Part shown: piece after piece, positions 40,965-61,784 of the stretch
How positions within the stretch are numbered: position 1 is the stretch's first letter
How the letters are laid out: every line of letters starts with the position of its first letter
Assembly: GCA_012960115.1 (NCBI GenBank)
Contig: DUBX01000013.1
Span: 38,260-102,259 of the forward strand
Direction: 5' to 3'
From: Porticoccaceae bacterium
GTDB lineage: Bacteria; Pseudomonadota; Gammaproteobacteria; Pseudomonadales; Porticoccaceae
Length of the DNA: 64,000 nucleotides
Notes under the pieces: generated by a model
Seen by the model: the letters and a program-made list of their open reading frames with translations, nothing else
What the model was told of the DNA's origin: nothing
The model's database searches: none
Program-made: the position numbers and the translations under genes

Positions 40965-41346
40965 ATGATTGATCACCATGATGCGTTAACAGCCGTTAAC
41001 AGCCGTTAACACTTATCTCTCCAGTTTAGTTAGTTCCGACCATCAGGCTATTGTTTCTCTATATGCTCATGATGCAACCGTTGAAGATCCCGTCGGCAGT
41101 GATATATTGCGTGGAACAGAGGCGATCACAAGCTTCTATCAGCATGCTACTGCAGCACTGAAAGGCGCAGAGTTGTTAGGTGATATTCGAGTGGCTGGGG
41201 ATGAGGTGGCATTTCCATTTGAGATTACTGCAGATCTAGGGGCGGGAATTATGAAGGTCCAGGTAATCGATTTGTTTCATTTTAATACGGACGAAAAAGT
41301 GGACTCGATGCGAGCATTTTGGGACCAAAACAACATGAAGATGTAA
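40965..41346 (+). pseudogene. ksi: Delta5-3-ketosteroid isomerase, disrupted (or switched off) by a 10-bp tandem duplication
   Basis: Removing one GTTAACAGCC unit gives MIDHHDALTAVNTYLSSLVSSDHQAIVSLYAHDATVEDPVGSDILRGTEAI...VIDLFHFNTDEKVDSMRAFW, with KSI catalytic Tyr/Asp/Asp context. Confidence 0.88.
40985..41011 (+). repeat. 10-bp tandem repeat GTTAACAGCC, about 2.7 copies, inside ksi
   Basis: GTTAACAGCC GTTAACAGCC GTTAACA read directly. Confidence 0.98.
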
Positions 41347-41779: not shown

Positions 41780-42558
41780 ATGCAATGGTATACCGGCAAC
41801 GTTTTTTACGACACATTACTCATTGTGGGCTTTATTTATACAGCCTTGATTTTGGTCAGTAGTTTTTTTGGCACGGCTCAGTATGGCGGTCGATTTGGCG
41901 CCCGAGGGAAAGGAATGAAACTTGGCTCTAAGCTTGGCTGGGTTGTCATGGAGTCTCCCGGCCTACTAGTATTTCCTTTGGTGTATGTGGCAGGCAGCAA
42001 TGCACTAGAACCTGTACCTCTTTTCTTTTTGTGTATTTGGATGATTCACTACACTAATCGTGCGCTCGTCACCCCATTACTTATGCGTGTGCAACCCGGC
42101 GCGCAATCGTCATTCGCCCTCAACGTGGTTTTTGCCGGATGGTTTACATTATCGCTACATGGCTACTTTAATGCGGCGTACATATCTGAACTAGGCGACC
42201 AATACACGATAGGATGGTTTAGCGACCCACGCTTTATTGTTGGGCTGGCTTTTCACTCAATATTTACTCAGACACCATTCTGCGCAATTTGCGCTCGTTG
42301 CATCCAAATCCAAACGAGCCTCGCTATAAAATACCGTATGGCGGCTTATTCAAATGGGTAAGTTGCCCTCAATATTTCGGCGAAATATTATCATTTATTG
42401 GCTTTGCCGTTATGACTTGGAACTTAGGTGCCGTATTTGTATTGGCAATGACCGCTGGAAATCTAATTCCTCGAGCGATATATACGCACAAATGGTTCCA
42501 CAAAAACTTCGAGGATTATCCGGCAGAGCGCAAAGCGATAATTCCATTTATTCTGTAG
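41780..42558 (+). pseudogene. steroid 5-alpha-reductase (SRD5A-like, 3-oxo-5-alpha-steroid 4-dehydrogenase) with internal frameshift
   Basis: ORF 41780-42361 (LGWVVMESPGLLVFPL...WFSDPRFIVG) continues in another frame as GFSLNIYSDTILRNLRSLHPNPNEPRYKIPYGGLFKWVSCPQYFGEI...FEDYPAERKAIIPFIL. Confidence 0.85.
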
Positions 42559-42741: not shown

Positions 42742-43887
42742 TTAAGAAAATGTTGCTAAGCTTTTCAGGATCAAACTGACCAGCATAGACTGTTGGGTGG
42801 CGCCAGTTTTGGCAAATATTGATCGTAATTGAGCGCGTGCTGTATTGCGTGCAATGCCGAGCAAAGCCGCACTCTGATCAAGCGTCTCTCCCGCAGCTAA
42901 GTGCTTGGCCAACATAGCTTCGGCACGGGTTAGTTTGTACAGAGAGCGTAGCATCTTAATGTCAATTTCGTATTTTTTGGCGGGATCGCTAATAAAGATC
43001 ATCAAGTGTGGGGTTTTAGTTGATTCGACCGTTTGGTCGACCGTTAATGGTTTGATTAACAGCTCTAAATGCACGGCGCCCGAAGGTCTCTCAACCGTCA
43101 TTGCATTGACAGGTGGAATGGTTTGCTTGCGCTGTGCGTCGATAACCTCAGAGATGTAATCATTCAGCTTATGTTTATCATTCGTGTTATCTAGATGCAA
43201 CTGGTCGTTAATAATATAGATTCCGTCTTTCTGGACGAGAAACTCCTCGGCGGCTCTATTTTGATTAATGACCTTACCTCTTTCATCCAGAGTAATGATG
43301 CCAATGGAAAGCCCTGATATGGTATTGGAAAAAAGCTTTCGTTCACTGTCGAGCTGAATTAGTTGCATTCCGTTGGCAACAGCGCGCTGTATATGCTGGC
43401 CAATTTCGGCCACAAAAGCCTTTTCTTCCTTATTAAAATTAGAGGCAGTTTTTGGGCGACAAAATCTGACTGTAAAGCGCTGGCCGTTGGCGTTTCTTAG
43501 GTCTAGGCCCATCATGTGATAGATATTAATGGGGGCCATACACATCGTGTATAACTTGCTGCTTTCAAGGGACTTATAGGATATGCATTCATCCAGAGTT
43601 ACCGCTTTACCCCAGGGTAGGTTATGCATGAGATCTGATGTGTAATACCTGTCGGTATAGGGGTTTTCGTGATCGTCAATTAGGGTCTTTTGAAGTATAT
43701 CGCAAGAAATAAAGAGCAGGCCACCATCATCACCTATGGGCTCTCTAAGGGTCATTGATGCAAAGTTAAGCTTCAGAATTTGCCTTATATTTTCAAGGAA
43801 ACTGTTATAAGGATCTTCTTCAATATGGCCATCATAAATGTAGCCAAGAAGTTTACTAAATTTTGCAATTGATAGGCATTCAAGCAT
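42742..43887 (-). CDS. LuxR-type transcriptional regulator, TesR/TeiR-like candidate
   Basis: About 380 aa, PAS-like middle, C-terminal LTRAEAMLAKHLAAGETLDQSAALLGIARNTARAQLRSIFAKTGATQQSMLV HTH; next to steroid genes. Confidence 0.75.
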   Translation of the reverse strand: MLECLSIAKFSKLLGYIYDGHIEEDPYNSFLENIRQILKLNFASMTLREPIGDDGGLLFISCDILQKTLIDDHENPYTDRYYTSDLMHNLPWGKAVTLDECISYKSLESSKLYTMCMAPINIYHMMGLDLRNANGQRFTVRFCRPKTASNFNKEEKAFVAEIGQHIQRAVANGMQLIQLDSERKLFSNTISGLSIGIITLDERGKVINQNRAAEEFLVQKDGIYIINDQLHLDNTNDKHKLNDYISEVIDAQRKQTIPPVNAMTVERPSGAVHLELLIKPLTVDQTVESTKTPHLMIFISDPAKKYEIDIKMLRSLYKLTRAEAMLAKHLAAGETLDQSAALLGIARNTARAQLRSIFAKTGATQQSMLVSLILKSLATFS

Positions 43888-44067: not shown

Positions 44068-45093
44068 TTAGTGCTTTGCCGCAGCGGCCATTTCGATGGC
44101 AATGTCCTCAATCAAATCTTCTTGGCCACCAACGGTCCTTCGTCGAGCCATTTCTAATAAAATTTGATGGGAGGGCACGCCGTATTTTAATTCGGCCCGC
44201 TTAGCGAAGAGTAAGAATGAAGAATAGGCTCCAGCATAGCCCAGTACTAAAGCATCACGGCCTAGCCTTACAGGCTCATCCATTATGGGGATGACCTGCT
44301 CCTCTGCGGCATCCATGAGCTTAAATATATCGATACCGGTTGTGGCACCCATGCGGTCTAAGACGGCAGCCATGACTTCAAGCGGCGTATTGCCGGCACC
44401 AGCACCCAGGCCTGCGGCAGAGCCGTCAATGCGGTCCGCGCCAGCTTCTAGGGCCGCCAGAGAGTTTGCCACACCCATAGCTAGGTTATGATGCCCGTGG
44501 AACCCAATCTGGGTGTCTTTACTTAACTCAGAGCGCAACAGTGCAATTCGCTCAGTGACATCATCTGGGAGCATATAGCCGGCTGAATCGGTGCAGTAAA
44601 TGCAGTTCGCACCGTAGGACTCCATCAGTTTTCCCTGTTCTAATAGCTGTTCGGGAGTGACCATATGAGCCATCATCAAAAAGCCGACCGTATCAAGCCC
44701 CATCTGCTGGGACAGGTTGATGTGCTGGCGAGACACATTAGCTTCGGTGCAGTGCGTGGCTACTCTAATTGTTGTTACACCGCACCCAGCGGCCATGCGT
44801 AAATGATCTACAGTACCTATGCCGGGGAGCAATAAGGCAGATATTTTAGCTGTTTTAACCCTATTTACTACTGCTGTTATATATTCTTCGTCTGTGTGAG
44901 CCGCAAAGCCATAATTGAGTGAGGCACCACCCAGACCATCGCCGTGGGTCACCTCAATCAGTGGCACACCAGCGTCATCAAGCGCACCCGATATATTAAT
45001 CATTTGTTCTATGGAGATTTGGTGTTGCTTAGGATGCATTCCGTCGCGGAGACACATATCATGGAGAATTACATTTTTACCTGAAAGATTCAT
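44068..45093 (-). CDS. hsaF: 4-hydroxy-2-oxovalerate aldolase (HsaF/TesG type)
   Basis: [56 protein letters not shown]. Confidence 0.93.
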
Positions 45094-45133
45094 AAGAGCA
45101 CTCTTTACTAAAAAATTAATGTCAGTGGCATGA

Positions 45134-46015
45134 TTAGGTAGACTGCTGAGCCAGCATTTCCGCTGTGCGCAGTCCCGCGGCAGTCATAATGTCGAGATTA
45201 CCTGAGTATTTTGGCAGAAAGTCTCCCAGACCTTCGACCTGAACTGAAATAGTGACCTTATTGCCGTTAAAAAGAGGTGTGTTGAGCATGATAAAGCCCG
45301 GGACATACTTCTGAACCTCCGCAATCATGTTTTCGAAAGAAGCAGTGATAGCGGGTTGGTCAGGAGTGTCGACAGTTAAGCAATGCACCGTATCACGCAT
45401 GACTAGAGGTGGCTGTGCAGGATTAATAATGATAATGGCTTTACCTTTACCCGCCCCGCCGACACTCTCAATGGCGGATGATGTCGTGCGGGTGAATTCG
45501 TCGATATTATCCCGGGTGCCCATACCTACTGATTCAGATGCGACAGTGGCCACAATTTCGGCGTAAGAGACGGCCTGCACACGGCTCACAGCCGCCACTA
45601 AAGGTATCGTAGCTTGGCCGCCACAAGTCACCATGTTTACATTGCTGTGATGACCTTCTTTAAGCAACTGTTCAAGATTGACCGGGGGCACGCAATAAGG
45701 GCCAATGGCCGCTGGAGTTAGATCGATCATAATGACGCCGCGAGAGGTTAACTTCTGTGAATTCTCAGCATGCACATAGGCTGAAGTAGCATCGAAGGCT
45801 ATCTTTATGTTATCTGCTTCAATAAAATCGAGCACACCGTCTACGCCATCAGTGGTGACTTTAAGTCCGTAGTCGTGAGCACGCTGAATGCCGGGTGATT
45901 CGTCAATGCCCACCATCCAAACAGGCTCTATCCAGTCGCTGCGCAGCGCCTTCATTAAAAGGTCTGTGCCTATATTACCTGGCCCGATAATTACAGCGCG
46001 TAGTTTGTTTGTCAT
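45134..46015 (-). CDS. hsaG: acetaldehyde dehydrogenase (acylating) (HsaG/TesF type)
   Basis: [38 protein letters not shown]. Confidence 0.94.
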
Positions 46016-46041
46016 AAAGAGTTCCTTAGTTGTCTATCTCG

Positions 46042-46848
46042 CTACAGGAAGAAACAGGTAGCGGTACAGGTATCAATGTCGATTCCAGATAGCTCTAGAT
46101 GCATATGGTCGCCAGCCTGAACCGGTTCTAAGGGCACCAGCGAGCCGGAAAGAATGACTTCCCCCGCAAGAAAGGGGATATCCAAAGCCCCGAGGGTATT
46201 AGCCAGCCAAGCCACGGCAGTAAGTGGATTTCCTTGGACCGCTGAACCCTTTCCTTGACTAATAAGGGTTGAGTTTTTATAGACTTTAATTTCGAGGTTA
46301 GCCAAATCAATACCCTTTGGATCTATCTCAGCACTACCCAGTACATAAACACCGCAGGAGGCGTTGTCAGAAATCGTGTCCTGTATCATTATTTGCCAAT
46401 TTTCAATTCTCGAGTCGACAATTTCAAAGCAGGGCATAATGCATTGGGTTGCATTAAGTACATCGAGTTCAGTTACCCCAGGCCCTTTAAGGTCTGATTT
46501 TAGTCGAAACGCGATCTCGGCTTCAGCGCGGGGCTGAATCAGGTTGCCTCGAACGCGAATCTCGGCGTGGTCGGCGTAGGCCATGGTATGGGTAAGAAAG
46601 CCAAAGTCAGGCTGGAATACGCCCAGCATATCTTGCACCGCGGCTGAGGTAACGCCAATCTTTTTGCCAACCACCAACTCGTTGTTGTTGTCCATGCGCA
46701 ATTGCAGGACCTGTCGAGAGATATGGTAGGCGTCGGCAATAGAAATATCAGGATACTCTTCAGTTAAGGGCGCAATGGTCGCTCCCTGCTTTAAGGCAGC
46801 ATAAAGTTGCGATGCGATGGACTCAATTAAAGCGCTCTGTATAGCCAT
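46042..46848 (-). CDS. hsaE: 2-hydroxyhexa-2,4-dienoate-type hydratase (HsaE/TesE type)
   Basis: VVGKKIGVTSAAVQDMLGVFQPDFGFLTHTM; RAEAEIAFRL. Confidence 0.9.
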   Translation of the reverse strand: MAIQSALIESIASQLYAALKQGATIAPLTEEYPDISIADAYHISRQVLQLRMDNNNELVVGKKIGVTSAAVQDMLGVFQPDFGFLTHTMAYADHAEIRVRGNLIQPRAEAEIAFRLKSDLKGPGVTELDVLNATQCIMPCFEIVDSRIENWQIMIQDTISDNASCGVYVLGSAEIDPKGIDLANLEIKVYKNSTLISQGKGSAVQGNPLTAVAWLANTLGALDIPFLAGEVILSGSLVPLEPVQAGDHMHLELSGIDIDTCTATCFFL

Positions 46849-46862
46849 AGCAGATATCCTGA

Positions 46863-47699
46863 TTAATTATCCTTCAAAAATTCAATGCACTGTTTGTTAA
46901 AATAGGTGCTGTGCTCCACCATTACCCAGTGACCACATTGGCTGAGCATGTTCATTCGAGCATCATTACACTGGCTTATAACAGTGTGTGCACCTGAGAT
47001 GGGGCAAAATTTATCTTGATAGCCCCAAAACCCCAAGATAGGAACGCTAAGCTCCGCCAAACGATGACTTAGGTTTGGTATCTGCATGGTAGCTAATACT
47101 TGGGGATTTTGTAATTGCAAGATTTTCCAGCGTTCATTAACAAGTTGCTCCGTCACATGCTTTGGATCAAAAACCAATAGTTTTAACAACTCACCCAGTA
47201 CATCTTTGGTAAATTCGGGTGACCCCATTGGGTATTTAACCATCGCTTGGATACCTTGAGTGGCAAAGTAGACCTCGCGCTCTTCAACCCCGCCGGTAGC
47301 CATCAATATTAAATGGCTTACTTTTTCTGGGTGCTCTAATGCATAACCAATCGCGATAGCCCCGCCCAAAGAGTTGCCCACGAGAATCGCGCTATTGATA
47401 CTTTTGTAGATCATAAATTCATCGAGATACTGGGTGAAGAAATCTAAGCTATAGATCGCATCAGTGGGCTTGCTGGTATATCCGTAGCCAGGTATATCAA
47501 TAACTATGGTGGTGTATCCAGCTTTGTGAAATGCATCAGTGTTTTGTTTGAAATTACTCCAACCACTGGCGCCAGGGCCGCTACCATGAATAAAGACAAC
47601 CGTAGGTGCATCCGCATTGCTTGAGCGCAACTCAAGATAATGAAGGTTCATCCCATTACTAAGGTTTGCGTAACTGCCTTCTGGAACCGTCCCTGCCAT
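46863..47699 (-). CDS. hsaD: meta-cleavage product hydrolase (HsaD/TesD type)
   Basis: FIHGSGPGASGWSNFKQN; VGNSLGGAIAIGYALEHPEKV; QCGHWVMVEH. Confidence 0.9.
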   Translation of the reverse strand: MAGTVPEGSYANLSNGMNLHYLELRSSNADAPTVVFIHGSGPGASGWSNFKQNTDAFHKAGYTTIVIDIPGYGYTSKPTDAIYSLDFFTQYLDEFMIYKSINSAILVGNSLGGAIAIGYALEHPEKVSHLILMATGGVEEREVYFATQGIQAMVKYPMGSPEFTKDVLGELLKLLVFDPKHVTEQLVNERWKILQLQNPQVLATMQIPNLSHRLAELSVPILGFWGYQDKFCPISGAHTVISQCNDARMNMLSQCGHWVMVEHSTYFNKQCIEFLKDN

Positions 47700-47711
47700 A
47701 ATAAATCTCGA

Positions 47712-48827
47712 TTAAATAAAGAAGTCAGAATTTCCAACGCCTAAGAGCGTGGCGCCTAGGTTTCGCGCGAACATCGCAGGACTATTGGCAACATGGGCAC
47801 GGGCAATATGGATGTCATTCCATATTTGTTGGAGAGCGTGTCCAGCATACACTGAGCGTCCGCCTGCTACATCAAACAGCCTGTCGATACCTTCAATACA
47901 TTTTTCTATTACCAAACTTGACTGATAACGATAGAGAATTCGCTGATTGATCGAAGGCTGCCAATTATTGCTTTGCATCTCATCGAAGTTTTTAAACATA
48001 ATGGTTTGGCATTCATCAATAATATTACTAACAAACGCGATTCGCGTCTGAGTTTCAACATCTCCAGCAAGCTTTGTCATGTCAGTACTAGCGGTATTGC
48101 GGTCTGACAAAAACAACTCTAGCCCCTTACTTAGCGCACCAATAGCGGGGGTGCAGACTACTCGTATAAAGACTTGGGCCCATGGCATTTGATACATTGG
48201 GTTGGGTTGACTTTGCACACAATTGAAGCCGTCCATTTGCTTGTGAGTGCGATGATCAGGAACAAATACGGGTGTATCTATCACTACGTCATTAGAGCCT
48301 GTTCCCTGCAATCCCATCACATGCCAGGTATCTTCGATATTATAATCATCTCGTGGAATCAAAAAGGTGCGATAGCCTTCGGTAGGAATTACGCCACCGA
48401 GAAGCGCCCAGTTGCAGTGATCTGACCCAGAGCTCCAGCCCCAGCGGCCACTCACCATAAAGCCACCATCAACGATTTCAACTCTCGCACCGACGGGGTT
48501 ATATGAGCTACTGATGAGGGTGGTGGGATCGTCTGAAAACACGTCTTGTTGAGCTTGCGGGTCCATCAGTGCAATTTGATAGGGATGCACGGCGACAATC
48601 CCGCACGCCCAAGCAGTACTCATGTCCGCCTTGGCAATGGCGAGATGGTCCTGGAAGAATTCTTGAGGGGTATGTTCAGAACCTCCTAATGATTTAGGTA
48701 GAAGCATTCCAAAGAAACCACAGTCTTTTAGCGCCTGAATATTCTCAGCGGGTATTTTGCGATTTGCCCTGCCTTGATCGGCATTTTTGGCAATGATATC
48801 TAGAACGTCTTGGTTCACAGTGTGCAT
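47712..48827 (-). CDS. hsaA: 3-HSA hydroxylase oxygenase component, acyl-CoA dehydrogenase fold (HsaA/TesA2 type)
   Basis: GFFGMLLPKSLGGSEHTPQEF...SGRWGWSSGSDHCNWALLGG. Confidence 0.87.
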   Translation of the reverse strand: MHTVNQDVLDIIAKNADQGRANRKIPAENIQALKDCGFFGMLLPKSLGGSEHTPQEFFQDHLAIAKADMSTAWACGIVAVHPYQIALMDPQAQQDVFSDDPTTLISSSYNPVGARVEIVDGGFMVSGRWGWSSGSDHCNWALLGGVIPTEGYRTFLIPRDDYNIEDTWHVMGLQGTGSNDVVIDTPVFVPDHRTHKQMDGFNCVQSQPNPMYQMPWAQVFIRVVCTPAIGALSKGLELFLSDRNTASTDMTKLAGDVETQTRIAFVSNIIDECQTIMFKNFDEMQSNNWQPSINQRILYRYQSSLVIEKCIEGIDRLFDVAGGRSVYAGHALQQIWNDIHIARAHVANSPAMFARNLGATLLGVGNSDFFI

Positions 48828-48878
48828 CTTCTAGCCCTCTCAAGCATTGCTTATACGTGTCATTACTTAATTATTTAG

Positions 48879-49379
48879 CTACGCGACCTCGGTGTATTTC
48901 CCTCGGTAGAACAGCAGTGGATTGGTGTGTGATTCACGCTCGTTATTGTCAAAATCTAGGACTCTACCGACAATAATTTCATGATCTCCTCCGTCATATT
49001 TATGCTCTACAGAACATTGAAAACAGGTGTTGTAATCGGCAAGAATAGGAACACCCTCTATTCCTGACCTCCATGCTTCGTTGGCAAACTTATCCGCATT
49101 ACGAGTTGCACAAATAGACGATAGCTCCTTCTGACCTCCGTGCAGAATATGTACGGCAAAATGCTCTGACTTAGAGAAAGCGTCAAAGCTTTTGGCTTTC
49201 TTATCAATGCTCCACAGTACTAGAGGAGGGTCAAGGGACACTGAGCAAAAGCTGTTAGCGGTCATTGCCACTGGAGTCTTAGCAATCAAGTCAACCTTAC
49301 ACAGTGCGGTGACAACGGTCACTCCTGTAGCGAAGGAACCAAACGCGTCACGTAAATCTCGAGGGTCAATGTCAGACAT
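48879..49379 (-). CDS. hsaB: flavin reductase component (HsaB/TesA1 type)
   Basis: MSDIDPRDLRDAFGSFATGVTVVTAL...MTANSFCSVSLDPPLVLWSID; internal ATG preferred. Confidence 0.87.
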   Translation of the reverse strand: MSDIDPRDLRDAFGSFATGVTVVTALCKVDLIAKTPVAMTANSFCSVSLDPPLVLWSIDKKAKSFDAFSKSEHFAVHILHGGQKELSSICATRNADKFANEAWRSGIEGVPILADYNTCFQCSVEHKYDGGDHEIIVGRVLDFDNNERESHTNPLLFYRGKYTEVA

Positions 49380-49480
49380 AAAACAGCATTCTCTTTGTAG
49401 AAATTGATATGGGAAAAGCGATGCCATAGTCGCAATATTAGCGATTTTGCGCATACCCCATTTGAATTAGGCTGTATCTA

Positions 49481-50383
49481 TTAACCCTGCCCGACACTGA
49501 AATCATGACCCCAAAAGCTAGGAACTGTACTTTCAAATACGCTAAATTTGTTCCAATCTTCAATGGTTCTACCTTCTGCGCCATACTCGATGTCAAAATT
49601 ACCTGGCGAACGCATATAGAATGACAACATATGATCATTGGTGTGACGGCCAAGAGTCCCTGAGAGATTTACTCCTTGTGCAATGCGTCGATCATTCGCT
49701 AGCCCAACCTCATCAACTGATTCAGCTTCAATCATTGCGTGCACGCATCCGGCAGGGAAATCCATCTCAAATAAGCCTATGGTGTGGTGACGTTGATTGC
49801 AGTGCATAAACCAAAGCCGCTTATTAAGCTCTGCTGGGTCGTCGCTGAATTTAATATTCATTAAATCAGAGAGGCCAAAGCCCAGCACATCAGTATAAAA
49901 TGCACTGGTTTCATCGAAATTAGGGGCAGGCAGAACGACATGGCCCAAGCCCATTTCACCAGTGACAAAACCACTGACCCCAACCGGAGAGACCATTCTT
50001 TTAGAATTGGATACCGGACCCCAGTAAAGCTCATGTTGATTCCCCGCAGGGTCGCTAAACATAACTAATTCGGTGACACAGCGTTGCTGTGTGAGTTCAG
50101 GGCTAGCATTGGTGACGGTTACTCCGGCCGCTGCCAATCTGGCTACTGTGTTGGCCATATTTTCTTGATTCGTGGCTTCCCAGCCGCAAAACCCAAAACT
50201 ATCGGCTTTTGATTGCTGGATAACCATGCGAAAAGGGCGTTCGTCCATTTTCAGTAATAAGCTATTATCGCTTGAATACTGATCAGTGACATCTTGCAAA
50301 CCAAGCACCTGAGTCCCGTATATTTGCCATTGACTGAGGTCGGTACTGTTTATTCCGATGTATCCAAGGCTTTGTATTGTCAT
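49481..50383 (-). CDS. hsaC: extradiol dioxygenase, 3,4-DHSA type (HsaC/TesB)
   Basis: Two VOC modules, GHVVLPAPNFDETSAFYTDVLGFGLSD, H-H-E pattern. Confidence 0.9.
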   Translation of the reverse strand: MTIQSLGYIGINSTDLSQWQIYGTQVLGLQDVTDQYSSDNSLLLKMDERPFRMVIQQSKADSFGFCGWEATNQENMANTVARLAAAGVTVTNASPELTQQRCVTELVMFSDPAGNQHELYWGPVSNSKRMVSPVGVSGFVTGEMGLGHVVLPAPNFDETSAFYTDVLGFGLSDLMNIKFSDDPAELNKRLWFMHCNQRHHTIGLFEMDFPAGCVHAMIEAESVDEVGLANDRRIAQGVNLSGTLGRHTNDHMLSFYMRSPGNFDIEYGAEGRTIEDWNKFSVFESTVPSFWGHDFSVGQG

Positions 50384-50411: not shown

Positions 50412-52019
50412 CTAGTGTTTTTGATCAACTGCAAGACTGCGCAACTGCATTTTTAATACTTTTCCAGAGGCGTTGAGTGGCAGGCTGTCGATTACCTGGA
50501 CCCGCCTGGGAACCTTATAATTTGCAATGTGATCACGGCTCCAGCTAATCAATTGCTGCTCGTCTAATGAGCAGCCACTCTCTAAAACAACCCAAGCCAT
50601 AGCAACCTCGCCTAAACGCACATCAGGGATACCAATGACAGCACAGCTAGCGATAGAGGGGTGTTGTGATAACTGGTTTTCGATCTCTGCGGGATAACAA
50701 TTAAACCCACCGGTAATAAACATATCTTTAAGACGATCAGTGATTGATAGATTGCCATGGTTATCTAAGAAACCTATATCACCGGTGTGCAACCAACCAT
50801 CGTTGTCGATTGACTCTGCAGTTGCCACTGAATTTTCAAAATAACCAAGCATGATATTAAATCCTCTAACCACAATTTCGCCTGCATGGCCTGCCTCTAA
50901 AGGCTGGCCATGCTCATCGACACATCTAAGCTCAATTCCAGGTATAGCGCGGCCAGAGGTGGTTGCTACCGTTGAGTCAGAGTCCTCATGTCGACACATG
51001 CTGACCAACCCACAGGATTCTGTAAGACCGTAGGCGGTCAGGACTGTTTTGATCCCTAGTGTCTGTCGTATGTTAGTAATCAGCTCTACCGGGATGACGG
51101 CAGCACCAGTGGTGGCTTTCGATAGAGTTGATATATCGAAGTCATTGAGGCGGGGTGACGATAAGATAGACTGAAATAGAGCCGGAGGCCCTGGCATCAT
51201 GGTTATTCGTTCACGCTCAACGCGCTGTAGAATTAATTCTGGATCGAAGACCTGATGAGGTATTAGCCTAGTGCCACGCATTAGACAGGCAAGAATACCC
51301 GCTTTGTAGCCAAAGCTATGGAAAAAGGGATTTATGACCAGATAGCGATCGTTCTCATCAAGCCCCAGTAACTCTGTCCATATTTTAAAGGTACGAATGT
51401 TTTGTTCGTGAGACGTCATCACACCCTTGGGTGCCCCTGTAGTGCCAGAGGTGAAAAGAATATCTGACAGATCAGTTGGTTGGATTTCGACTATCCGTTG
51501 CTCTAAGGCATCACTGCCATGCTTGGTGAGATGTTGCTCGCCACTGTCATAGAAGTCATTCCATGAAAGTGGGTCATTAGCCGTAGGGTTAAAAACCACA
51601 ATGTCATTAACCGAACCAAAATCTTCGTTGGCGAGCATTTGAGTGTAATCAGTGTTGAGAAAATCGCCCACACTAAATAAAACAGATGCAGAGGCGCGGC
51701 GCAGTATATCAGCCGCCTCGCTTCCTTTGTATCGAGTGTTTATCGTTACCAGTACGCCACCGGCGGTCTGTATGCCCATTGCTGCGATGACCCATTGGTA
51801 CATGTTGGGGGCCCAAATGGCGGCTTTATCACCGAGTTTAAAATCCCGCGACATAAGCGCGGCAGCTACATTGCGTGACTGCTCCTGAAGCTGCCGAAAA
51901 GTAATCATGTAACCATTGTCATCGACAAACACACGATCATCAAAATGGGCTGCAGCTGCGTTGATAAGCTGCGGAATGGTTTTGCTGTTGCAGGGGCTAT
52001 CAGCAGTGTTGTTGACCAT
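50412..52019 (-). CDS. acyl-CoA synthetase (FadD3-like, HIP-CoA ligase candidate)
   Basis: ILFTSGTTGAPKGVMTSH; GWLHTGDIGFLD; DRLKDMFITGGFNCYPAEIEN. Confidence 0.87.
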   Translation of the reverse strand: MVNNTADSPCNSKTIPQLINAAAAHFDDRVFVDDNGYMITFRQLQEQSRNVAAALMSRDFKLGDKAAIWAPNMYQWVIAAMGIQTAGGVLVTINTRYKGSEAADILRRASASVLFSVGDFLNTDYTQMLANEDFGSVNDIVVFNPTANDPLSWNDFYDSGEQHLTKHGSDALEQRIVEIQPTDLSDILFTSGTTGAPKGVMTSHEQNIRTFKIWTELLGLDENDRYLVINPFFHSFGYKAGILACLMRGTRLIPHQVFDPELILQRVERERITMMPGPPALFQSILSSPRLNDFDISTLSKATTGAAVIPVELITNIRQTLGIKTVLTAYGLTESCGLVSMCRHEDSDSTVATTSGRAIPGIELRCVDEHGQPLEAGHAGEIVVRGFNIMLGYFENSVATAESIDNDGWLHTGDIGFLDNHGNLSITDRLKDMFITGGFNCYPAEIENQLSQHPSIASCAVIGIPDVRLGEVAMAWVVLESGCSLDEQQLISWSRDHIANYKVPRRVQVIDSLPLNASGKVLKMQLRSLAVDQKH

Positions 52020-52212
52020 AGTGGCTTCAGTTTTCTTTAATTGGCTTTCAATATATTTGAGTGAGGCTTTTTTGTCATAGTCCTAATGGATGATGATTGC
52101 CTAAGGGCCACCTCACATAATCTGGTTTCTGCATTTATACTATTGCTTCGACGTCTATGGGTGGCCTTGAATACTTTTGGGGCGAGCCAATGTTCCCGTA
52201 GCGTTATTTTTA

Positions 52213-53109
52213 ATCAGGTTTTGGAGTTGCGCCATGAACAAGATAATGTCCGCTGAGCAGGCAATTGCACAGATTAGTAATGGCATGACTGTCGGCATTG
52301 GCGGTTGGGGTCCTCGACGAAAACCAATGGCTCTGATACGAGAGATCCTTCGCTCAGATTTAACAGATCTAACCATCGTTGCCTATGGCGGGGCTGATGT
52401 CGGTATGCTGTGCGCAGCGGGCAAGGTTAAAAAGGTCATCTTTGCCTTTGTCTCCCTTGATTTCATTCCTCTTGAACCCTATTTTCGGCAAGTTCGCCAG
52501 AATGGCAGCATCCAAGTGATGGAAGTTGATGAAGGTATGCTTTTGCTGGGTCTTCGAGCAGCGGCGTGGAAAATACCCTTTATTCCAACCAGCGTTGGTC
52601 TAGGTACCGATGTGATTAAAAACAACAGTGACCTGGCTATTATCGCCAGCCCTTATGATGAAAAAGACTGGGTCGCTATGCCGGCATTGAAACTGGACGT
52701 ATCGCTGGTCCATGTCGATAAGGCTGATAGTCGAGGTGTATGCCAAATCAAAGGTCCAGATCTTTACATGGACGATTGGTTTGCCCGCGCTGCAGAGGTG
52801 ACCATCGCGAGCTGCGAAGATATCGTCGACTCGGACTATTTTTCGCCCTCAGATGAAGCTAGACATGTTCATTGGGAGCGGTCTGAAACGACAGCTGTAG
52901 TGCATCTTCCCTGCGGGGCTCACCCGACGTCTTGTCCTCCATTGTATGGTTTTGATGTGGCGCACTTCAAACTCTATAACGCGACAACTAAAGAGGGTGG
53001 CTTCGATCATTACCGTGATACCTATATTGCTGAAAAAGATGAGCAGGAATACCAAGAAGCGGTGGGAGGGGTGGATAAGATCAAGTCTATTCCCTTGCCA
53101 ATTTATTAA
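52213..53109 (+). CDS. ipdA: CoA-transferase family subunit A, IpdA-like (COCHEA-CoA hydrolase)
   Basis: SAEQAIAQISNGMTVGIGGWGPRRKPMALIREILRSDLTDLTIVAYGGADVGML; followed by IpdB-like. Start uncertain (track starts at 52177; an ATG lies at 52234). Confidence 0.88.
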   Translation: MRFWSCAMNKIMSAEQAIAQISNGMTVGIGGWGPRRKPMALIREILRSDLTDLTIVAYGGADVGMLCAAGKVKKVIFAFVSLDFIPLEPYFRQVRQNGSIQVMEVDEGMLLLGLRAAAWKIPFIPTSVGLGTDVIKNNSDLAIIASPYDEKDWVAMPALKLDVSLVHVDKADSRGVCQIKGPDLYMDDWFARAAEVTIASCEDIVDSDYFSPSDEARHVHWERSETTAVVHLPCGAHPTSCPPLYGFDVAHFKLYNATTKEGGFDHYRDTYIAEKDEQEYQEAVGGVDKIKSIPLPIY

Positions 53110-53136
53110 TAATTATTTTGTAATGGATTAAAGTTA

Positions 53137-53940
53137 ATGACGACAACGGCCGCAGAATACAAACTATGTGAATTGATGATTTGCGCAGCTGCCGAGACCT
53201 TTAGAGGAAATGGCGAGGTGCTAGCGACGGGTATTGGGGTCATTCCCCGTTTGGCGGCGAGTCTTGCAATGAAATCCTGTAATACCGACTTGATGATGAC
53301 TGATTCTGAGGCTTGGATGCTAAGTGAACCCAATGCAGTGAGCGGAAGGCATTTTGGGGAAGGACAGAAACAAGAATCTTGGATGGGCTTTTCTCGGATA
53401 TTTGACAACGTTTGGGGTGGTAAGCGCCATGCGCTAGTTGGCCCAAGTCAGATCGATCGATTCGGACAAACTAACATTTCGGCCTTGGGTGGTACTTATG
53501 AGCAACCTAAAGTTCAAATGCTGGGTGTACGAGGTTTTCCAGGTAACTCTATTAGCCACGCTAACTCTTTTTATGTCCCAGCACACAGCAAGCGTGTATT
53601 CGTTGAAGGTGAGTGTGATGTTGTCTGCTCTATAGGCTATAACGCTGGGCGATTGCCTAGAGGTTATGGTTTTGATGATATTGACATCCGCCGAGTAATC
53701 ACAGACCTCTGCGTTATGGATTGGCAAGGGCCTAATCATCAGTTACGACTGCTGACCTTGCATCCTGGAATTACGGTACAGCAAGTGATCGATAATACCG
53801 GCTTTGCAGTGCATGTCGGCGATGAAGTCACCACTACTGCAGGGCCTACGATTGAGCAGATTGCCATAATCGCGTCCTTAGACCCTGTTGGAATCCGCCA
53901 CAAACAGTTAGCGGATAATCCTATGGGTGACCGACGCTAA
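53137..53940 (+). CDS. ipdB: CoA-transferase family subunit B, IpdB-like
   Basis: ATGIGVIPRLAASLAMKSCNTDLMMTDSEAWM...LGGTYEQPKVQMLGVRGFPGNSISHANSFYVP. Confidence 0.88.
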   Translation: MTTTAAEYKLCELMICAAAETFRGNGEVLATGIGVIPRLAASLAMKSCNTDLMMTDSEAWMLSEPNAVSGRHFGEGQKQESWMGFSRIFDNVWGGKRHALVGPSQIDRFGQTNISALGGTYEQPKVQMLGVRGFPGNSISHANSFYVPAHSKRVFVEGECDVVCSIGYNAGRLPRGYGFDDIDIRRVITDLCVMDWQGPNHQLRLLTLHPGITVQQVIDNTGFAVHVGDEVTTTAGPTIEQIAIIASLDPVGIRHKQLADNPMGDRR

Positions 53941-53978
53941 CCTTATTTTGACCTGAGCAAAAATGCGAGAGAAAAGTT

Positions 53979-54866
53979 ATGACTGACAACCAAAAAACTA
54001 AAACTAAAACTAAAACTGAAGTCGATATCGTGCTCTATTCTGTGGCGAAAGGCGTTGCCACAATTACTATGAATCGCCCGAAATATAACAATGCCCAAAA
54101 TGGGCGCATGACCTATGAACTAGACGCCGCGTTTCAGCGTGCAGTAGCCGATGACGAGGTTAAGGTGATAGTGCTTAAAGGCAACGGCAAACATTTCTCA
54201 GCTGGCCATGACATTGGCACTCCTGGACGTGATATCAACGAAAGCCAAGATCGAGTTACTCTTTGGTATGACCACGCCAATAAAGATGGCGGTGAGTTCT
54301 TATATGTGCGAGAAGCCGAGGCTTACTTGGGTATGTGCCGTCGCTGGAGAGATATTCCCAAGCCGACCATTGCGGCAGTGCAGGGCGCCTGTATTGCTGG
54401 AGGATTAATGTTGGCATGGGTCTGTGATCTTATAGTTGCTACTGACGATGCTTTCTTTTCAGATCCGGTGGTACGAATGGGTATTCCTGGGGTCGAATAT
54501 TTCGCCCACCCCTTTGAACTACCCCCTCGTATCGCCAAAGAATTCCTGTTTTTAGGTGATCGTATGTCTGCCCAAAGAGCAGAACGGATGGGTATGGTCA
54601 ATCGTCTATCGACCCGAGAGACCCTAGATGCCGACGTAGATGCTATTGCGGCAAAAATAGGCACCATGCCGCGCTTGGGTCTGGCCTTAACCAAACAGGC
54701 GATTAACAATATTGAAGACTTGCGGGGTAAGCGTACCGGTATGGACGCGGCTTTTGCTTGGCATCACTTTGCCCATGGCCACAATGAGTTAGTGTCTGGT
54801 GACAAACTTGGTGGTTTTGACGCGAAAAAGATGGCTGAGGAGAACAAAAACCAGGACAAAACCTAA
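53979..54866 (+). CDS. enoyl-CoA hydratase/isomerase, EchA20-like
   Basis: ITMNRPKYNNAQN; GNGKHFSAGHDIGTPG; AVQGACIAGGLMLAWVCDLIVATDDAFFSDPVVRMGIPG. Confidence 0.87.
   Translation: MTDNQKTKTKTKTEVDIVLYSVAKGVATITMNRPKYNNAQNGRMTYELDAAFQRAVADDEVKVIVLKGNGKHFSAGHDIGTPGRDINESQDRVTLWYDHANKDGGEFLYVREAEAYLGMCRRWRDIPKPTIAAVQGACIAGGLMLAWVCDLIVATDDAFFSDPVVRMGIPGVEYFAHPFELPPRIAKEFLFLGDRMSAQRAERMGMVNRLSTRETLDADVDAIAAKIGTMPRLGLALTKQAINNIEDLRGKRTGMDAAFAWHHFAHGHNELVSGDKLGGFDAKKMAEENKNQDKT
53994..54017 (+). repeat. hexanucleotide AAAACT x4 microsatellite in coding sequence (KT repeat)
   Basis: AAAACTAAAACTAAAACTAAAACT at the N-terminal coding region. Confidence 0.97.
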
Positions 54867-54934
54867 GGGTCAGTTTTGCAAGATAATATCTTCCTAATAG
54901 GGTTACCCAAACAGGGGTAATAGGTACATGTACT

Positions 54935-56101
54935 ATGAAATTGACATACACAGTTGAAGAGCAGGGATTTCGTCTACAAGTCCGTCAGTGGCTAGTGGAC
55001 AATCCGCCCAAACAGCCCCTCAACTCCTTTGACACACAAAAAGGGTTTGAGCAGCACCGGCAGTGGGAGAAAACCCTCGCGTCAGGAAACTGGGGGATGG
55101 TGACCTGGCCAAAGGAATATGGTGGCAGAGGCTGCAATCTTATTGAGTGGCTTATTTTTGAAGAAGAATATTATCGTGCTGGAGCACCTTTAAGGGTTAA
55201 TCAAAACGGCATCTTCTTGCTCGGCCCAACGTTAATGGAATATGGTACTGACGAGCAAAAAGAGCGTTTTATTAGTGCGATGGCCAGTGGCGATGAAATT
55301 TGGGCTCAAGGTTGGTCAGAACCGGGTGCCGGTTCTGATATGGCAGCAATAAGATCTAAGGCGACTCGAGATGGCGATGAGTATGTTATTAACGGCCAGA
55401 AAATATGGTCGAGCAGAGCCGTATTTGCTGACTGGGTGTTTTGCATATTTCGCACTGACCCAGATTCAAGCCGACATCACGGATTGTCATTTATGCTTGT
55501 TCCACTAGACGCAGAAGGTGTCACCGTTCGCCCCATCGAGCAACTTAACGGCCTGCCAGGGTTTGCTGAAATCTTCTTTGATAATGTGAGGATCCCTGTA
55601 TTCAATCGCTTAGGGGAAGAGGGGGAAGGCTGGAGCATTGCAATGTCTACTGCGGGCTTTGAGCGAGGCTTGATGTTGCGAAGCCCTGCACGTTTCCAGC
55701 AAGCGGCAAAAAACCTAATGGAACTTTATCGCGCCAAGCGCAACGACATTCTTGATTTGTCGATCGAAGATGCCGTAGTCCGCTGTTACATGGATGCAGA
55801 AGCTTATGCGCTCTCAACCTATCAAACGGCATCAAGACTCATGAACGGCGGCCAGATAGGGGCTGAATCGAGCTGTAATAAGATATTTTGGTCAGAATTA
55901 GACCTAAAGATACATGACGCAGCCATGCGCCTACTTGGAGCAAGGGGAGAGCTGGAGGCCGATTCAGAAGATGCTAGCGCTGAATTAGGCGGCTGGTTGG
56001 ACGGCTTTTTATTTGCTCAGTCAGGGCCTATTTACGCCGGAACCAATGAAGTTCAGCGCAACATAATCGCCGAGAGAATGCTCGGTATGCCACGCAAATG
56101 A
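54935..56101 (+). CDS. acyl-CoA dehydrogenase (IpdE1/FadE30-like)
   Basis: WAQGWSEPGAGSDMAAIRSKATRDGDEYVINGQKIWSS; YAGTNEVQRNIIAERMLG. Confidence 0.87.
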   Translation: MKLTYTVEEQGFRLQVRQWLVDNPPKQPLNSFDTQKGFEQHRQWEKTLASGNWGMVTWPKEYGGRGCNLIEWLIFEEEYYRAGAPLRVNQNGIFLLGPTLMEYGTDEQKERFISAMASGDEIWAQGWSEPGAGSDMAAIRSKATRDGDEYVINGQKIWSSRAVFADWVFCIFRTDPDSSRHHGLSFMLVPLDAEGVTVRPIEQLNGLPGFAEIFFDNVRIPVFNRLGEEGEGWSIAMSTAGFERGLMLRSPARFQQAAKNLMELYRAKRNDILDLSIEDAVVRCYMDAEAYALSTYQTASRLMNGGQIGAESSCNKIFWSELDLKIHDAAMRLLGARGELEADSEDASAELGGWLDGFLFAQSGPIYAGTNEVQRNIIAERMLGMPRK

Positions 56102-56150
56102 GCGTCTTTGATATCAAATATCTAGACCTAACTGACTACAGGTAACCAAC

Positions 56151-57266
56151 GTGAACTTCACCTACTCAGAAGATCAACTAACCTACCGAGATACGGTTGC
56201 AGCCCTCTTGTCCTGTGAAGTCACAGCTGATTCTATTCGCGCCCGCTGGACAAGCGCTCAAGGTATTGATGCCAATTTAACCCAGCAGCTTGCAGATATG
56301 GGGCTTAATGCCTTGTTAGTACCAGAGTCCTGCGGCGGTTTAGGCCTGTCCGAGCTAGATTTCATTCTGTTGGCACAAGAGTGCGGCCGCGTAGCCTTGC
56401 CAGAGCCTCTGGTTGAAAATGCGATGGCGGCCACCGCTATGTTATCTGAAGTCGCCAGCTCTGACCTAGCCGCAGCCAATCAATGCCAAGACACCTTAAA
56501 ACAGATCGCCACAGGTAATGCCTCGGTTGCCTGTGGCCATTGGATTAACCCCTACGTAAACATGGCAGATACAAGCCACTGGTTACTATTGCCTCATGGT
56601 GACGAGGTACATTTAGTGAGCACCCAAACGGTGGATTTGATTGCCCAGCGGAGCTCAGACCCCAGCCGTCGAATATCCAAAGTTAACTGGCAGCCCAGCC
56701 GCGGAACTAAGATAGCCGGCGGACAACAAGGGGCAGAATTATGGCGCTCTGCGCTCAATAGAGGTGCCTTGGGTGTAGCCGCTCAGTTAATAGGTTTGGC
56801 CGAAAGTATTTTGCGTCGGGCTGTGGTTTTCACGACCGACCGAGAACAATTTGGTCGGCCTGTGGGCGCCAATCAGGCTGTAAAACATCTGCTCGCTGAC
56901 TGTGCGGTTAGTCTAGAGTTTGCTAAACCGGTTATCGCCAGAGCGGCTTATGCCGTTGCGAATTCACCCACTCGTGCTGATTGGGCCGTGTCCCACGCTA
57001 AGGTGGCAGCGAGTTATGCTGCGCTTCTAACTGTTCGTCACGGCATGCAGGTACATGGTGCTATGGGCTACACATGGGAGTGCGATCTTCAAATCTGGAT
57101 GAAGCGTTGCTGGGCAATTGATAAGACCTGGGGCGATGTTGGATTCCATAAAAATAGAATTCACGAGTGGCTGTTAAACCCCAATGCGTTAATGGGCGCT
57201 GAACATACGTTTGACAAAAGCGGTTCGCCAAGTGATGAATCTAATTCACAACAGGGAGCGGGTTAA
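56151..57266 (+). CDS. acyl-CoA dehydrogenase (IpdE2/FadE33-like partner)
   Basis: YSEDQLTYRDTVAALL; TDREQFGRPVGANQAVKHLLAD; MQVHGAMGYTWECDLQIWMKR. Confidence 0.85.
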   Translation: MNFTYSEDQLTYRDTVAALLSCEVTADSIRARWTSAQGIDANLTQQLADMGLNALLVPESCGGLGLSELDFILLAQECGRVALPEPLVENAMAATAMLSEVASSDLAAANQCQDTLKQIATGNASVACGHWINPYVNMADTSHWLLLPHGDEVHLVSTQTVDLIAQRSSDPSRRISKVNWQPSRGTKIAGGQQGAELWRSALNRGALGVAAQLIGLAESILRRAVVFTTDREQFGRPVGANQAVKHLLADCAVSLEFAKPVIARAAYAVANSPTRADWAVSHAKVAASYAALLTVRHGMQVHGAMGYTWECDLQIWMKRCWAIDKTWGDVGFHKNRIHEWLLNPNALMGAEHTFDKSGSPSDESNSQQGAG

Positions 57267-58420
57267 TGGCTTTAAATCAGGCTTATATAGTGGATGCGGT
57301 TCGCAGTCCAACGGGACGACGTAATGGCGGCCTAGCCGATGTCCATGGTGCAGATCTCGGTGCTCATGTGTTAAAGAGCATTGTGCAGCGTAATGGTATC
57401 CCGGACGTTGAGTACGACGACGTTATTTTTGGCTGCGTTGATGCTGTTGGTCCACTAGCCGGCGATATAGCTCGGACTGCTTGGTTAGTCGCTGGTCTTT
57501 CAGACGAGGTTCCTGGCACCACTATCGACCGGCAGTGTGGCTCTTCCCAACAAGCGGTGCATTTCGCCGCTCAGGCGATTATGTCAGGGACTATGGATGT
57601 CATCGTTGCTGGCGGCGTCCAAACCATGACTCAGATCCCCATAGGCTCGGCAATGACCCTAGCGGGCCCCCTAGGCTTTTCTGATCCATTCTCAGGGAGC
57701 CAGGGCTGGACAGATCGTTATGGCGATGTTTTTGTCTCTCAGTTTAAATCTGCCCAGATGATGGCGGACAAATGGAAATTGTCTCGTGCCCACATGGAGG
57801 CCTTTGCGCTGCGCTCGCATAATCGTGCATTAAACGCTATCGAAAAGGGCTATTTTGATAGAGAAATAGCGCCATTAAATGGTGTAGTAATGGACGAAAC
57901 TGCCAGAATCACCTCACTTGAGAAAATGGCCGAACTGCAACCCATACAAAAGGGCGGCAGCATTACAGCGGCAGTGTCCAGTCAAACCTGCGACGGAGCT
58001 TCTGCGATTTTGTTGGTTTCTGAAGATGCGTTAAAGCGTTACAACCTAACACCACGGGCTCGCATTGCTCATATGTCAGTGCGAGGTGCAGACCCTATTT
58101 GGATGTTAACAGCACCGATTCCCGCGACGGCATACGCATTGAAAAAAGCCCAGATGAGTATTCATGATATTGACCTAGTAGAAATTAATGAGGCCTTTGC
58201 GCCAGTGCCCATGGCATGGCTTGCGGAGACTGGGTTTGACCCAGATAAAACCAACGTTAACGGTGGGGCGATTTCGCTGGGACACCCCTTAGGAGCCACT
58301 GGCACAAAGTTAATGACCACTTTGTTACATGAGTTAGAGCGCAGTAACGGGCGCTATGGACTTCAGACGATGTGTGAGGGTGGTGGTCAGGCAAACGTCA
58401 CCATTATTGAGCGACTCTAA
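57266..58420 (+). CDS. acetyl-CoA acetyltransferase (FadA6-like thiolase)
   Basis: DRQCGSSQQAVHFAAQAIMSG; NVNGGAISLGHPLGATGTKLM; CEGGGQANVTI. Confidence 0.92.
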   Translation: MALNQAYIVDAVRSPTGRRNGGLADVHGADLGAHVLKSIVQRNGIPDVEYDDVIFGCVDAVGPLAGDIARTAWLVAGLSDEVPGTTIDRQCGSSQQAVHFAAQAIMSGTMDVIVAGGVQTMTQIPIGSAMTLAGPLGFSDPFSGSQGWTDRYGDVFVSQFKSAQMMADKWKLSRAHMEAFALRSHNRALNAIEKGYFDREIAPLNGVVMDETARITSLEKMAELQPIQKGGSITAAVSSQTCDGASAILLVSEDALKRYNLTPRARIAHMSVRGADPIWMLTAPIPATAYALKKAQMSIHDIDLVEINEAFAPVPMAWLAETGFDPDKTNVNGGAISLGHPLGATGTKLMTTLLHELERSNGRYGLQTMCEGGGQANVTIIERL

Positions 58421-58479
58421 ATACGCTGGCTTGAGTCAGCACCGACTAATTAATTAGATACTTTATAGGAATTAAACAA

Positions 58480-59361
58480 ATGAGCGGTATTTGTGATGGG
58501 CGAGTCATTATTATCACTGGGGCAGGGGGCGGGTTAGGGCGAGAGTACGCCTTAGCTTTTGGCGCCGCTGGGGCCAAGGTATTGGTTAATGATATTAACG
58601 CTCAGGCTGCGGCAGATACGGTAGCCGATATTCAACGTGCAGGTGGGAAAGCTTTAGCAAACACTCAAGATATCACTAATTATGAGCAGTCTGAATCTAT
58701 CGTTCGGACAGCCATAGATCATTTTGGCGATCTTCACGTTGTGATTAACAACGCGGGTATATGCCGTGATCGAATGTTCGCATCGATGACAGAGCAAGAG
58801 TGGGATCAGGTAATTTCGGTACATTTAAAGGGTCATTTCTGCATTAGCAGTCATGCTGTGCATTACTGGCGCGACCAATTCAAAGAGGGCCATCAAGTAG
58901 ATGCTCGAATTATCAATACATCTTCAGGCGCCGGATTAAATGGCTCCATTGGCCAGAGTAACTACGCGGCTGCTAAGGGGGGCATTGCTTCTTTAACACT
59001 CAATCAAGCGGCCGAATTAAGACGCTACGGTATTACCGCAAATGGTCTGGCCCCAGCGGCCAGAACTGGTATGAGCGAAGAGGCTTTCGCAGACATGATG
59101 AAAAAACCTGAGAACGGAAGCTTTGACTATTATGATCCGGCCAATGTCGCGCCATTAGTTGTTTGGCTAGGGTCTAAGCATTCAGCAGATTGCACGGGAC
59201 GTTTATTTGAAGTCGTCGGTGGAGAGATATCCGTGGCCGATGGTTGGCGTTCAACCCTTTCGGTGGATAAAGGTGCCAAGTGGCAAGCAGAGGAGGTTGG
59301 TGAAGCGGTACAGGTGCTTATGTCACGTGAAACCCCAGCACAAAAGGTATATGGCGCCTAA
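58480..59361 (+). CDS. SDR oxidoreductase, 17-beta-HSD4-like 3-hydroxyacyl-CoA dehydrogenase
   Basis: GAGGGLGREYALAFGAAGAKVLVNDIN; SNYAAAKGGIASLTLNQAAELRRYGITANGLAPAARTGM. Confidence 0.87.
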   Translation: MSGICDGRVIIITGAGGGLGREYALAFGAAGAKVLVNDINAQAAADTVADIQRAGGKALANTQDITNYEQSESIVRTAIDHFGDLHVVINNAGICRDRMFASMTEQEWDQVISVHLKGHFCISSHAVHYWRDQFKEGHQVDARIINTSSGAGLNGSIGQSNYAAAKGGIASLTLNQAAELRRYGITANGLAPAARTGMSEEAFADMMKKPENGSFDYYDPANVAPLVVWLGSKHSADCTGRLFEVVGGEISVADGWRSTLSVDKGAKWQAEEVGEAVQVLMSRETPAQKVYGA

Positions 59362-59398
59362 TATAGTATTAACCTGAGTGGAGTAGAGCCAAGCTATT

Positions 59399-60568
59399 AT
59401 GGATTTTAAGTTTACCGACGAACAGATAATGATTCGCGATACCGCAGACGCTTTTCTAGCAGAGACATCCACTAGTGCTGCTGTGCGGCAGGTAATGGAC
59501 AGCGAGTTGGGTTATGACCCTCAGTTGTGGCGGCGCATCTGTGATGAAATGTACTGGCAAGGAATACACATTCCAGAAGCCTATGGTGGTTTGGGGCTTG
59601 GCTATGTCGAACTGACGGCGACACTAGAGCAAATGGGGCGTTACCTTTGTTGTTCTCCGTTTTATGCCTCAGTCTGTTTAGCCGCCAATGCACTTTTAGT
59701 GGCTGGCACAGAGCTGCAAAAATTGACCTATTTGCCGCAGATTACCGAGGGTAAAACCGCCACCCTAGCGCATACCTCTGAGGCTGGAGATTGGAGCTCT
59801 AGCGGCGTTAAGGTCACTTACCAAAAGCAGGGTGACAGCTATTGTTTAAATGGAACCTACCGCTTTGTACCAGACGGCCACAGTGCCGATATTTTGATGC
59901 TGGCAGCGCGAGATCAAGACTCCCACGGGCTCGAGGGCATTAGCCTATTTGTCGTGCCTGCCAACACGCCGGGTATAAGTCGCGAGTGGTTGCCAACCAT
60001 GGATCAGACTCGTAGACAGGGGCAGTTGCAGATAAACAATCTGATACTTCATGAGGGCACCGTGATGGGCAGTGCGGGCGAAGCTTGGCCGCAACTTGAG
60101 CAAATTTTAGATTTAGGTCGAATCGCAGTGGCTGCAGAGCAATTAGGTGGTTCACAGCAATGCCTTGATTCAACGTTGGCTTATATTAGTGAACGAGTCC
60201 AATTTGGTCGGTCAATAGCCTCTTATCAATCGGTAAAACACAAGTGTGCAGACATGATGGTTAAGGTCGAAGCCGCACGCTCAGCCGTCTATTACGCAGC
60301 CTGTGTTGGCGATCAATTTTTCAATCAAACCGCAGGCGCCTCAGAGTTAGCTGAAGCTGCCAGTATTACCAAAGCCTACAGTAGCGACAGCTTTTTTCAC
60401 AATGCCGGGGTGGGTATCCAGCTTCATGGTGGTGTTGGCATTACCGCGGAATACGATATTCAGCTATATTTCAAGCGAGCTAAGTCTACAGAGACGTTTC
60501 TAGGCGCCTCAGACTATCATCGGGAACGGCTGGCGATTCTTTTGCTGGATACTCAGGTGACCTTGTGA
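59399..60568 (+). CDS. acyl-CoA dehydrogenase
   Basis: FKFTDEQIMIRDTADAFLAETS; ERVQFGRSIASYQSVKHKCADMMVKVEAARS. Confidence 0.87.
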   Translation: MDFKFTDEQIMIRDTADAFLAETSTSAAVRQVMDSELGYDPQLWRRICDEMYWQGIHIPEAYGGLGLGYVELTATLEQMGRYLCCSPFYASVCLAANALLVAGTELQKLTYLPQITEGKTATLAHTSEAGDWSSSGVKVTYQKQGDSYCLNGTYRFVPDGHSADILMLAARDQDSHGLEGISLFVVPANTPGISREWLPTMDQTRRQGQLQINNLILHEGTVMGSAGEAWPQLEQILDLGRIAVAAEQLGGSQQCLDSTLAYISERVQFGRSIASYQSVKHKCADMMVKVEAARSAVYYAACVGDQFFNQTAGASELAEAASITKAYSSDSFFHNAGVGIQLHGGVGITAEYDIQLYFKRAKSTETFLGASDYHRERLAILLLDTQVTL

Positions 60569-61755
60569 AGCTAGACTTTAGCCCAAAGGATGAGTTGTTT
60601 CGTCAGGAAATTGCCAGCTGGTTAGCATCCAACCTGTGCGGTGAGTTTGATGTTATTCGTGGTCGTGGCGGACCAGGTGATCAGCATATGTTTATTGACG
60701 AACGAAAAGCTTGGGAGCAAAAGCTCTACCAAGGGGGCTGGACCTGCATTGGTTGGCCGCCTGAATACGGTGGCCGTGACGCCTCAATAGAAGAGCAGGT
60801 TATTTTTAACGAAGAATACGCAAGAGCCCAAGGACCAGGCAGAGCAGGCCATATTGGTGAGACGCTGGTTGGGCCGACACTTATTGCCTTTGGCAATCAG
60901 GATCAGAAAGACCGATATTTACCAGAAATTTTGCGCGGTGAGGCCTTTTGGTGCCAGGGTTATTCTGAACCTGGGGCGGGTTCAGACTTAGCTAATGTAA
61001 AAACCGGCGCCCAGTTCGATGATGCCACGCAGCAATGGTTTATCAGTGGACAAAAAGTATGGACTTCCTTGGCTCGAGAGTCTGATTATTGCTTTGTTAT
61101 TGCGCGCACTGACGCTAAATCTGTTGGTCATCATGGTTTAGGCTTCTTTTTGGTACCCATTGACCAGACTGGAGTAACGATTCGCCCAATAGAGCAACTC
61201 ACCGGCACCAGCGAGTTTAACGAAGTGTTTTTTGATGATGCCCAGTGTTCAGTTGAAGACATTGTCGGCGAACCTGGTGATGGTTGGAAAGTCGCCATGG
61301 GCTTGTTGGGCTTTGAACGCGGTATCTCTACGCTGGGCCAGCAAATGCTGTTTCAAAACGAACTGGACGAGATTATTACACTGGCCAAGACCAATGGTTC
61401 AGCCAAAAACCCTCAGATCCGGCAACGAATCGCGGAGGCCCATATAGGCCTCAGAATTATGCGATTTAACAGTATGCGAGTGCTCTCCTCTGAAGGGGCC
61501 GATGGAAGTTTACAAAAAGAATCGATGATTTATAAGTTGTATTGGTCTAGCTGGCATCGAAATTTGGGTAAGCTGGCCATGGACGTAATGGGAGCTGAGA
61601 GCGAAGTACTTAAGGGTGGGCCCTACCAGCTAAACCGGCTGCAATCGATGTACTTGTTTTCTCGCGCCGATACTATTTACGGCGGAACCAATCAAATTCA
61701 ACGCAACCTTATTGCCGAGCGTGCCTTGGGTATGCCCAGAGAGCCCCGAGGTTAA
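60565..61755 (+). CDS. acyl-CoA dehydrogenase, partner of preceding gene
   Basis: CQGYSEPGAGSDLANVKTGAQFD; YGGTNQIQRNLIAERALGMPREPRG; start overlaps preceding stop. Confidence 0.87.
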   Translation: MKLDFSPKDELFRQEIASWLASNLCGEFDVIRGRGGPGDQHMFIDERKAWEQKLYQGGWTCIGWPPEYGGRDASIEEQVIFNEEYARAQGPGRAGHIGETLVGPTLIAFGNQDQKDRYLPEILRGEAFWCQGYSEPGAGSDLANVKTGAQFDDATQQWFISGQKVWTSLARESDYCFVIARTDAKSVGHHGLGFFLVPIDQTGVTIRPIEQLTGTSEFNEVFFDDAQCSVEDIVGEPGDGWKVAMGLLGFERGISTLGQQMLFQNELDEIITLAKTNGSAKNPQIRQRIAEAHIGLRIMRFNSMRVLSSEGADGSLQKESMIYKLYWSSWHRNLGKLAMDVMGAESEVLKGGPYQLNRLQSMYLFSRADTIYGGTNQIQRNLIAERALGMPREPRG

Positions 61756-61784
61756 GGGCATTATGCTTATTAAGGAGTACTAAA

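Follow-up and report, generated by a model that had tools for sequence, protein, structure and literature searches.

The reading frame of the SRD5A-like gene

The DNA analysed here, a stretch of 64,000 nucleotides from a SAR92-clade bacterium of the family Porticoccaceae (the window), raises the question whether its SRD5A-like gene is broken, works in two parts, or was broken only in the assembly. The preliminary description, made from the sequence alone, had proposed an SRD5A-family gene interrupted by a frameshift, and the gene (41780-42558, + strand) was indeed confirmed to be split between two frames. The first open reading frame starts with ATG 41780 and extends to 42361. Its in-frame homology to intact relatives is confined to the 5' fragment, 41780..42247 (+), which ends at ...WFSDPRFIVGLA; past 42247 it is out of frame. 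By homology this fragment is the TM1-4 part, and it carries Met57-Glu58 and Tyr91 at the positions of the Q-E-Y motif. Homology picks up one frame over, at GGC 42247, as GFSLNIYSDTILRNL... (GFSLNIYSD...). This 3' fragment, 42247..42558 (+, -1 frame), corresponds by homology to the NADPH-binding TM5-7 part, and ends in FIL with the stop codon at 42556-42558. Its matches to the Steroid_dh profile PF02544 (9.5e-33; 113.7 bits, with a cut-off of 22.6 bits) and to PbSRD5A, PDB 7c83 (2.2e-29), are far beyond chance. The intact relative G003 scored 133.4 bits with the same profile, and the intact relatives aligned with PbSRD5A along almost the entire length (E 3.8e-55). The window's own genome contained one strong PF02544 match only.

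The missing nucleotides

DNA comparison with two syntenic relatives of the same genus, G003 (L006; 92% DNA identity) and G024 (L005; 86%), each with one open gene of 264 codons, revealed that the window lacks exactly 16 nt. The junction, 42245..42248 (+), lies between GGGC and TGGC, or equivalently after GGGCTG, and it is recreated with zero mismatches when the G024 sequence is shortened by 16 nt at any of three equivalent neighbouring positions. The earlier estimate of about 16 missing nucleotides was thus correct, while its other proposal, a missing piece of one TGGC unit, failed; the protein length of 260-270 aa proposed with it could be narrowed to 264 aa from the intact relatives. Nor does the TGGC/CTGGC motif have the role ascribed to it, for GGGCTGGC at the junction is created by the join. 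Slippage on TGGC was rejected as the cause of the deletion, because the relatives' sequences leave TG alone as microhomology. With only these 2 nt flanking it, the 16-bp deletion would probably have arisen by replication slippage or end joining.

Roughly five TM5 codons are lost with the deletion, and the frame changes immediately ahead of the NADPH-binding N-x-x-S-D motif. In the alignment to PbSRD5A the break falls in TM5 directly before the N159/D163 equivalents, and the NADPH contacts N159, D163 and R170 together with all of TM6-7 are located 3' of it. In PbSRD5A the steroid pocket is formed by TM1-4, and NADPH is bound by TM5-7 via N159, D163, R170, N192, Y193, E196 and TM7 residues (PMC7815742). 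The 5' product would accordingly keep the steroid-pocket half and be without the whole cofactor half, so an active enzyme is not expected from it, and enzyme activity was presumably lost.

It is very improbable that the gene still works, either as two polypeptides or by -1 slippage on the TTTT run present at the junction, which would yield a protein with five residues fewer in TM5. Such a reading could draw on that run and on the full conservation of the downstream half in the -1 frame, where 92-93% of the residues agree with those of the two closest relatives. However, the 3' frame contains no start codon upstream of the conserved NIYSD (N-x-x-S-D) motif; its only starts, TTG 42289/42298 and ATG 42412, come after it and are all within conserved sequence. 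In addition, an X-XXY-YYZ heptamer is absent, five residues of a conserved transmembrane helix would be gone even with slippage, and the arrangement was found in zero relatives.

Orthologues in related genomes

The codons missing from the window are retained in all of the distinct aligned relatives (33/33), and every one has the same distance between DPRF and the SD motif. A survey of 50 genomes of the genus gave seven orthologues with 73-100% identity to the G003 protein, each an uninterrupted frame of 274-291 aa; only in G000, the window's genome, is the gene split into two pieces. The named relatives with an orthologue include Halieaceae and Luminiphilus MAGs, HTCC2080, Pseudomaricurvus alcaniphilus and Endozoicomonas elysicola. 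A split shared by relatives, which the preliminary description had named as evidence against a broken gene, was sought in the 50 genus genomes and 29 named genome loci; none was found, each orthologue being a single open frame. A programmed frameshift or two-part arrangement is therefore not conserved in any of these genomes and loci. A genuine two-part or recoded gene is not supported, since 33 distinct relatives keep the missing codons, none is split, and no start lies ahead of the conserved 3' motif. The inactivating lesion has no counterpart in any orthologue, as is the case for a pseudogene.

In the SRD5A-like gene 6 synonymous and 5 non-synonymous substitutions were assigned to the window lineage, and 9 and 8, respectively, to the G003 lineage. 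By these counts, which are too few to tell, the window lineage does not appear visibly more relaxed than that of G003. Nothing indicates prolonged decay, and the break, if real, would thus be recent; the lack of relaxed selection is compatible with a very recent break and with an artefact alike.

In the preferred reading, which we consider probable, this is an accessory SRD5A-family gene, situated before a 9,10-seco steroid cluster, that has recently become a pseudogene through a loss-of-function mutation. As in ordinary bacterial short-indel pseudogenes, the lesion is an indel of a single lineage, with intact orthologues and an accessory function; the only distinctive feature of the case is that the neighbouring ksi gene is hit as well.

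The neighbouring ksi gene

The ksi-like gene (SnoaL/NTF2-type; 40965..41346, +) is itself broken, by a 10-bp tandem duplication, in agreement with the earlier claim that the SRD5A-like gene is the second broken steroid gene at this site. The duplication, TTAACAGCCG twice and followed by TTAACA, occupies 40986..41011 (+). Translation from ATG 40965 meets a stop at 41007-41009, after 14 codons, and homology returns in another frame up to 41346. This break is independent of that in the SRD5A-like gene.

In relatives, ksi is intact upstream of srd5a on contigs L028 and L029, and intact in G015, where srd5a is absent. At this location G003 and G024 lack ksi, except for a short 3'-terminal remnant in G024. 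The states seen between pepN and the hsa regulator are consequently ksi with srd5a, srd5a alone, ksi alone, and, in the window, both broken. Three relatives have an intact ksi and two have none at this position, so that the stretch before the hsa genes is variable in content. This variability and the broken ksi suggest that neither gene is needed for ring degradation. L028 and L029 belong to MAGs named Rhodospirillaceae and Akkermansiaceae, and their srd5a and hsa genes have 76-93% protein identity; these contigs are likely misbinned, since they carry a SAR92-like steroid cluster at that level of identity.

The steroid-degradation cluster

Between srd5a and the hsa genes is an open gene of 381 aa (42742..43887, -), conserved with the cluster. 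It gave zero matches in Pfam and NCBIfam, and its C-terminal sequence suggests a LuxR-like regulator. The A/B-ring steroid degradation genes follow, HsaF-, HsaG-, HsaE-, HsaD-, HsaA-, HsaB- and HsaC-like (44068..50383, -), then a FadD3-family acyl-CoA ligase (50412..52019, -) and, on the + strand at 52177..62576, genes for an IpdA-like CoA transferase, an enoyl-CoA hydratase, acyl-CoA dehydrogenases (one IpdE2-like), a thiolase and SDRs. All of these are open, and the region from 44068 to 62576 is, as judged from its gene content, a 9,10-seco steroid degradation cluster. It resembles known clusters of this type (hsa/ipd/fadD3) in that HsaA-G-like, FadD3- and Ipd-like genes are contiguous and open, and differs from them in having the SRD5A-family and ksi genes as variable extras at the edge.

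Nine genomes of the genus have hsaC at an identity of at least 62%, and eight of the nine have an srd5a orthologue, the copy in G000 being broken and G015 having none; among the 50 genomes, no srd5a orthologue was found in those without hsaC (kinship was ignored in all these counts). The confinement to hsaC-bearing genomes links the gene with the breakdown of steroids. A homologue of the FAD enzyme adjoining srd5a in G023 is also retained in the window's genome.

Synonymous divergence from G003 was about 0.1 in hsaA, B, D, E and srd5a, and 0.4-0.9 in hsaC, fadD3, ipdB, echA and the thiolase gene (window 49481-58420), with ipdA (0.11) sandwiched between the high-divergence genes. This mosaic over 49481-58420 suggests recombination. 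The hsaB of G015 (L078:16561-16900) matched in three pieces and may be broken or divergent.

Quality of the assembly

Could the breaks instead be an artefact of consensus or assembly, or a minority strain variant in the consensus, with srd5a and perhaps ksi intact in most cells? This we regard as unlikely, but as a serious rival. The whole contig of 133 kb was compared with two contigs of G003, about 110 genes in all. Away from the gaps of Ns that scaffold the contig, srd5a and fabB were the only genes with short coding breaks, and an assembly generally ridden with frame errors was for this reason ruled out; the remaining splits are at N gaps or concern a single gene from which a large part is missing. 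As a separate observation, the window's contig has only remnants of a gene that encodes 441 aa in G003 (G000:C13 near 4051, L069), with about 290 codons missing.

The fabB-like gene (KAS I, beside fabA; 11160-12373, -) lacks one G at 11994 relative to G003, which breaks its frame at a distance of 30 kb from the SRD5A-like gene. An essential role is expected for FabB, and the genome, which is 94% complete, yielded no further clear KAS I gene; the 1-nt break is thus probably a consensus error. It serves as a warning on other frame breaks in the contig and, together with the N gaps, the intact genes of close relatives in the genus and the lack of relaxed selection in the fragments, speaks for an artefact. 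On the other hand, there are two or three coding breaks only in about 110 genes. Indels of 16 nt and 10 nt are atypical of short-read base errors; a clean deletion and a tandem duplication of these lengths are typical of real slippage mutations, and both hits are in adjacent, functionally linked genes. We infer that the deletion is present in the cells and not in the assembly alone.

Family label and active-site residues

The preliminary identification as a steroid 5-alpha-reductase holds for the family but not necessarily for the activity. The Q-E-Y catalytic motif (Q56/E57/Y91 of human SRD5A2) was not found in the marine clade, as counted in 34 sequences (L005-L010, L028-L054 and window 41780-42558). 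Compared with PbSRD5A and human SRD5A1/SRD5A2, the clade keeps the Glu and Tyr of this motif, as well as the NADPH motif N-x-x-S-D...R-x-L-R, but has Met for Gln (M-E-Y) in 34/34 sequences, including the window, and Gln for the NADPH-binding Asn192/193 in 32/34; the window copy differs further in being frame-broken ahead of TM5-7. Of the NADPH-binding set, N159, D163, R170, Y193 and E196 are kept in the 3' fragment and its relatives, N192 being the residue replaced. Human SRD5A2 requires Q56, E57 and Y91, and its activity was abolished in Q56A/L (PMC7815742). With Met throughout the clade at the required Gln, 5-alpha-reductase activity should not be assumed; the name is a family label here, and true activity of this kind is uncertain. 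A literature search on the srd5a-like gene in SAR92 found only PbSRD5A and general steroid-degradation surveys.

More tentatively, the intact gene may represent a marine SRD5A subfamily (M-E-Y, usually with Gln for the NADPH-binding Asn), present in the genus only with the hsa cluster, which might catalyse a step other than 5-alpha-reduction, e.g., reduction of another double bond or the reverse dehydrogenation. Losing it along with ksi, as here, would then mark a change in usable steroids.

A broken SRD5A-like gene is in itself ordinary. If the breaks are real, A-ring helper genes such as ksi and the srd5a-like gene can vanish while the ring-degradation genes stay open, which would point to a drift of substrate range within a group of marine bacteria. 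M-E-Y throughout the clade is a caution against naming the marine genes '5-alpha-reductase' after human SRD5A2.
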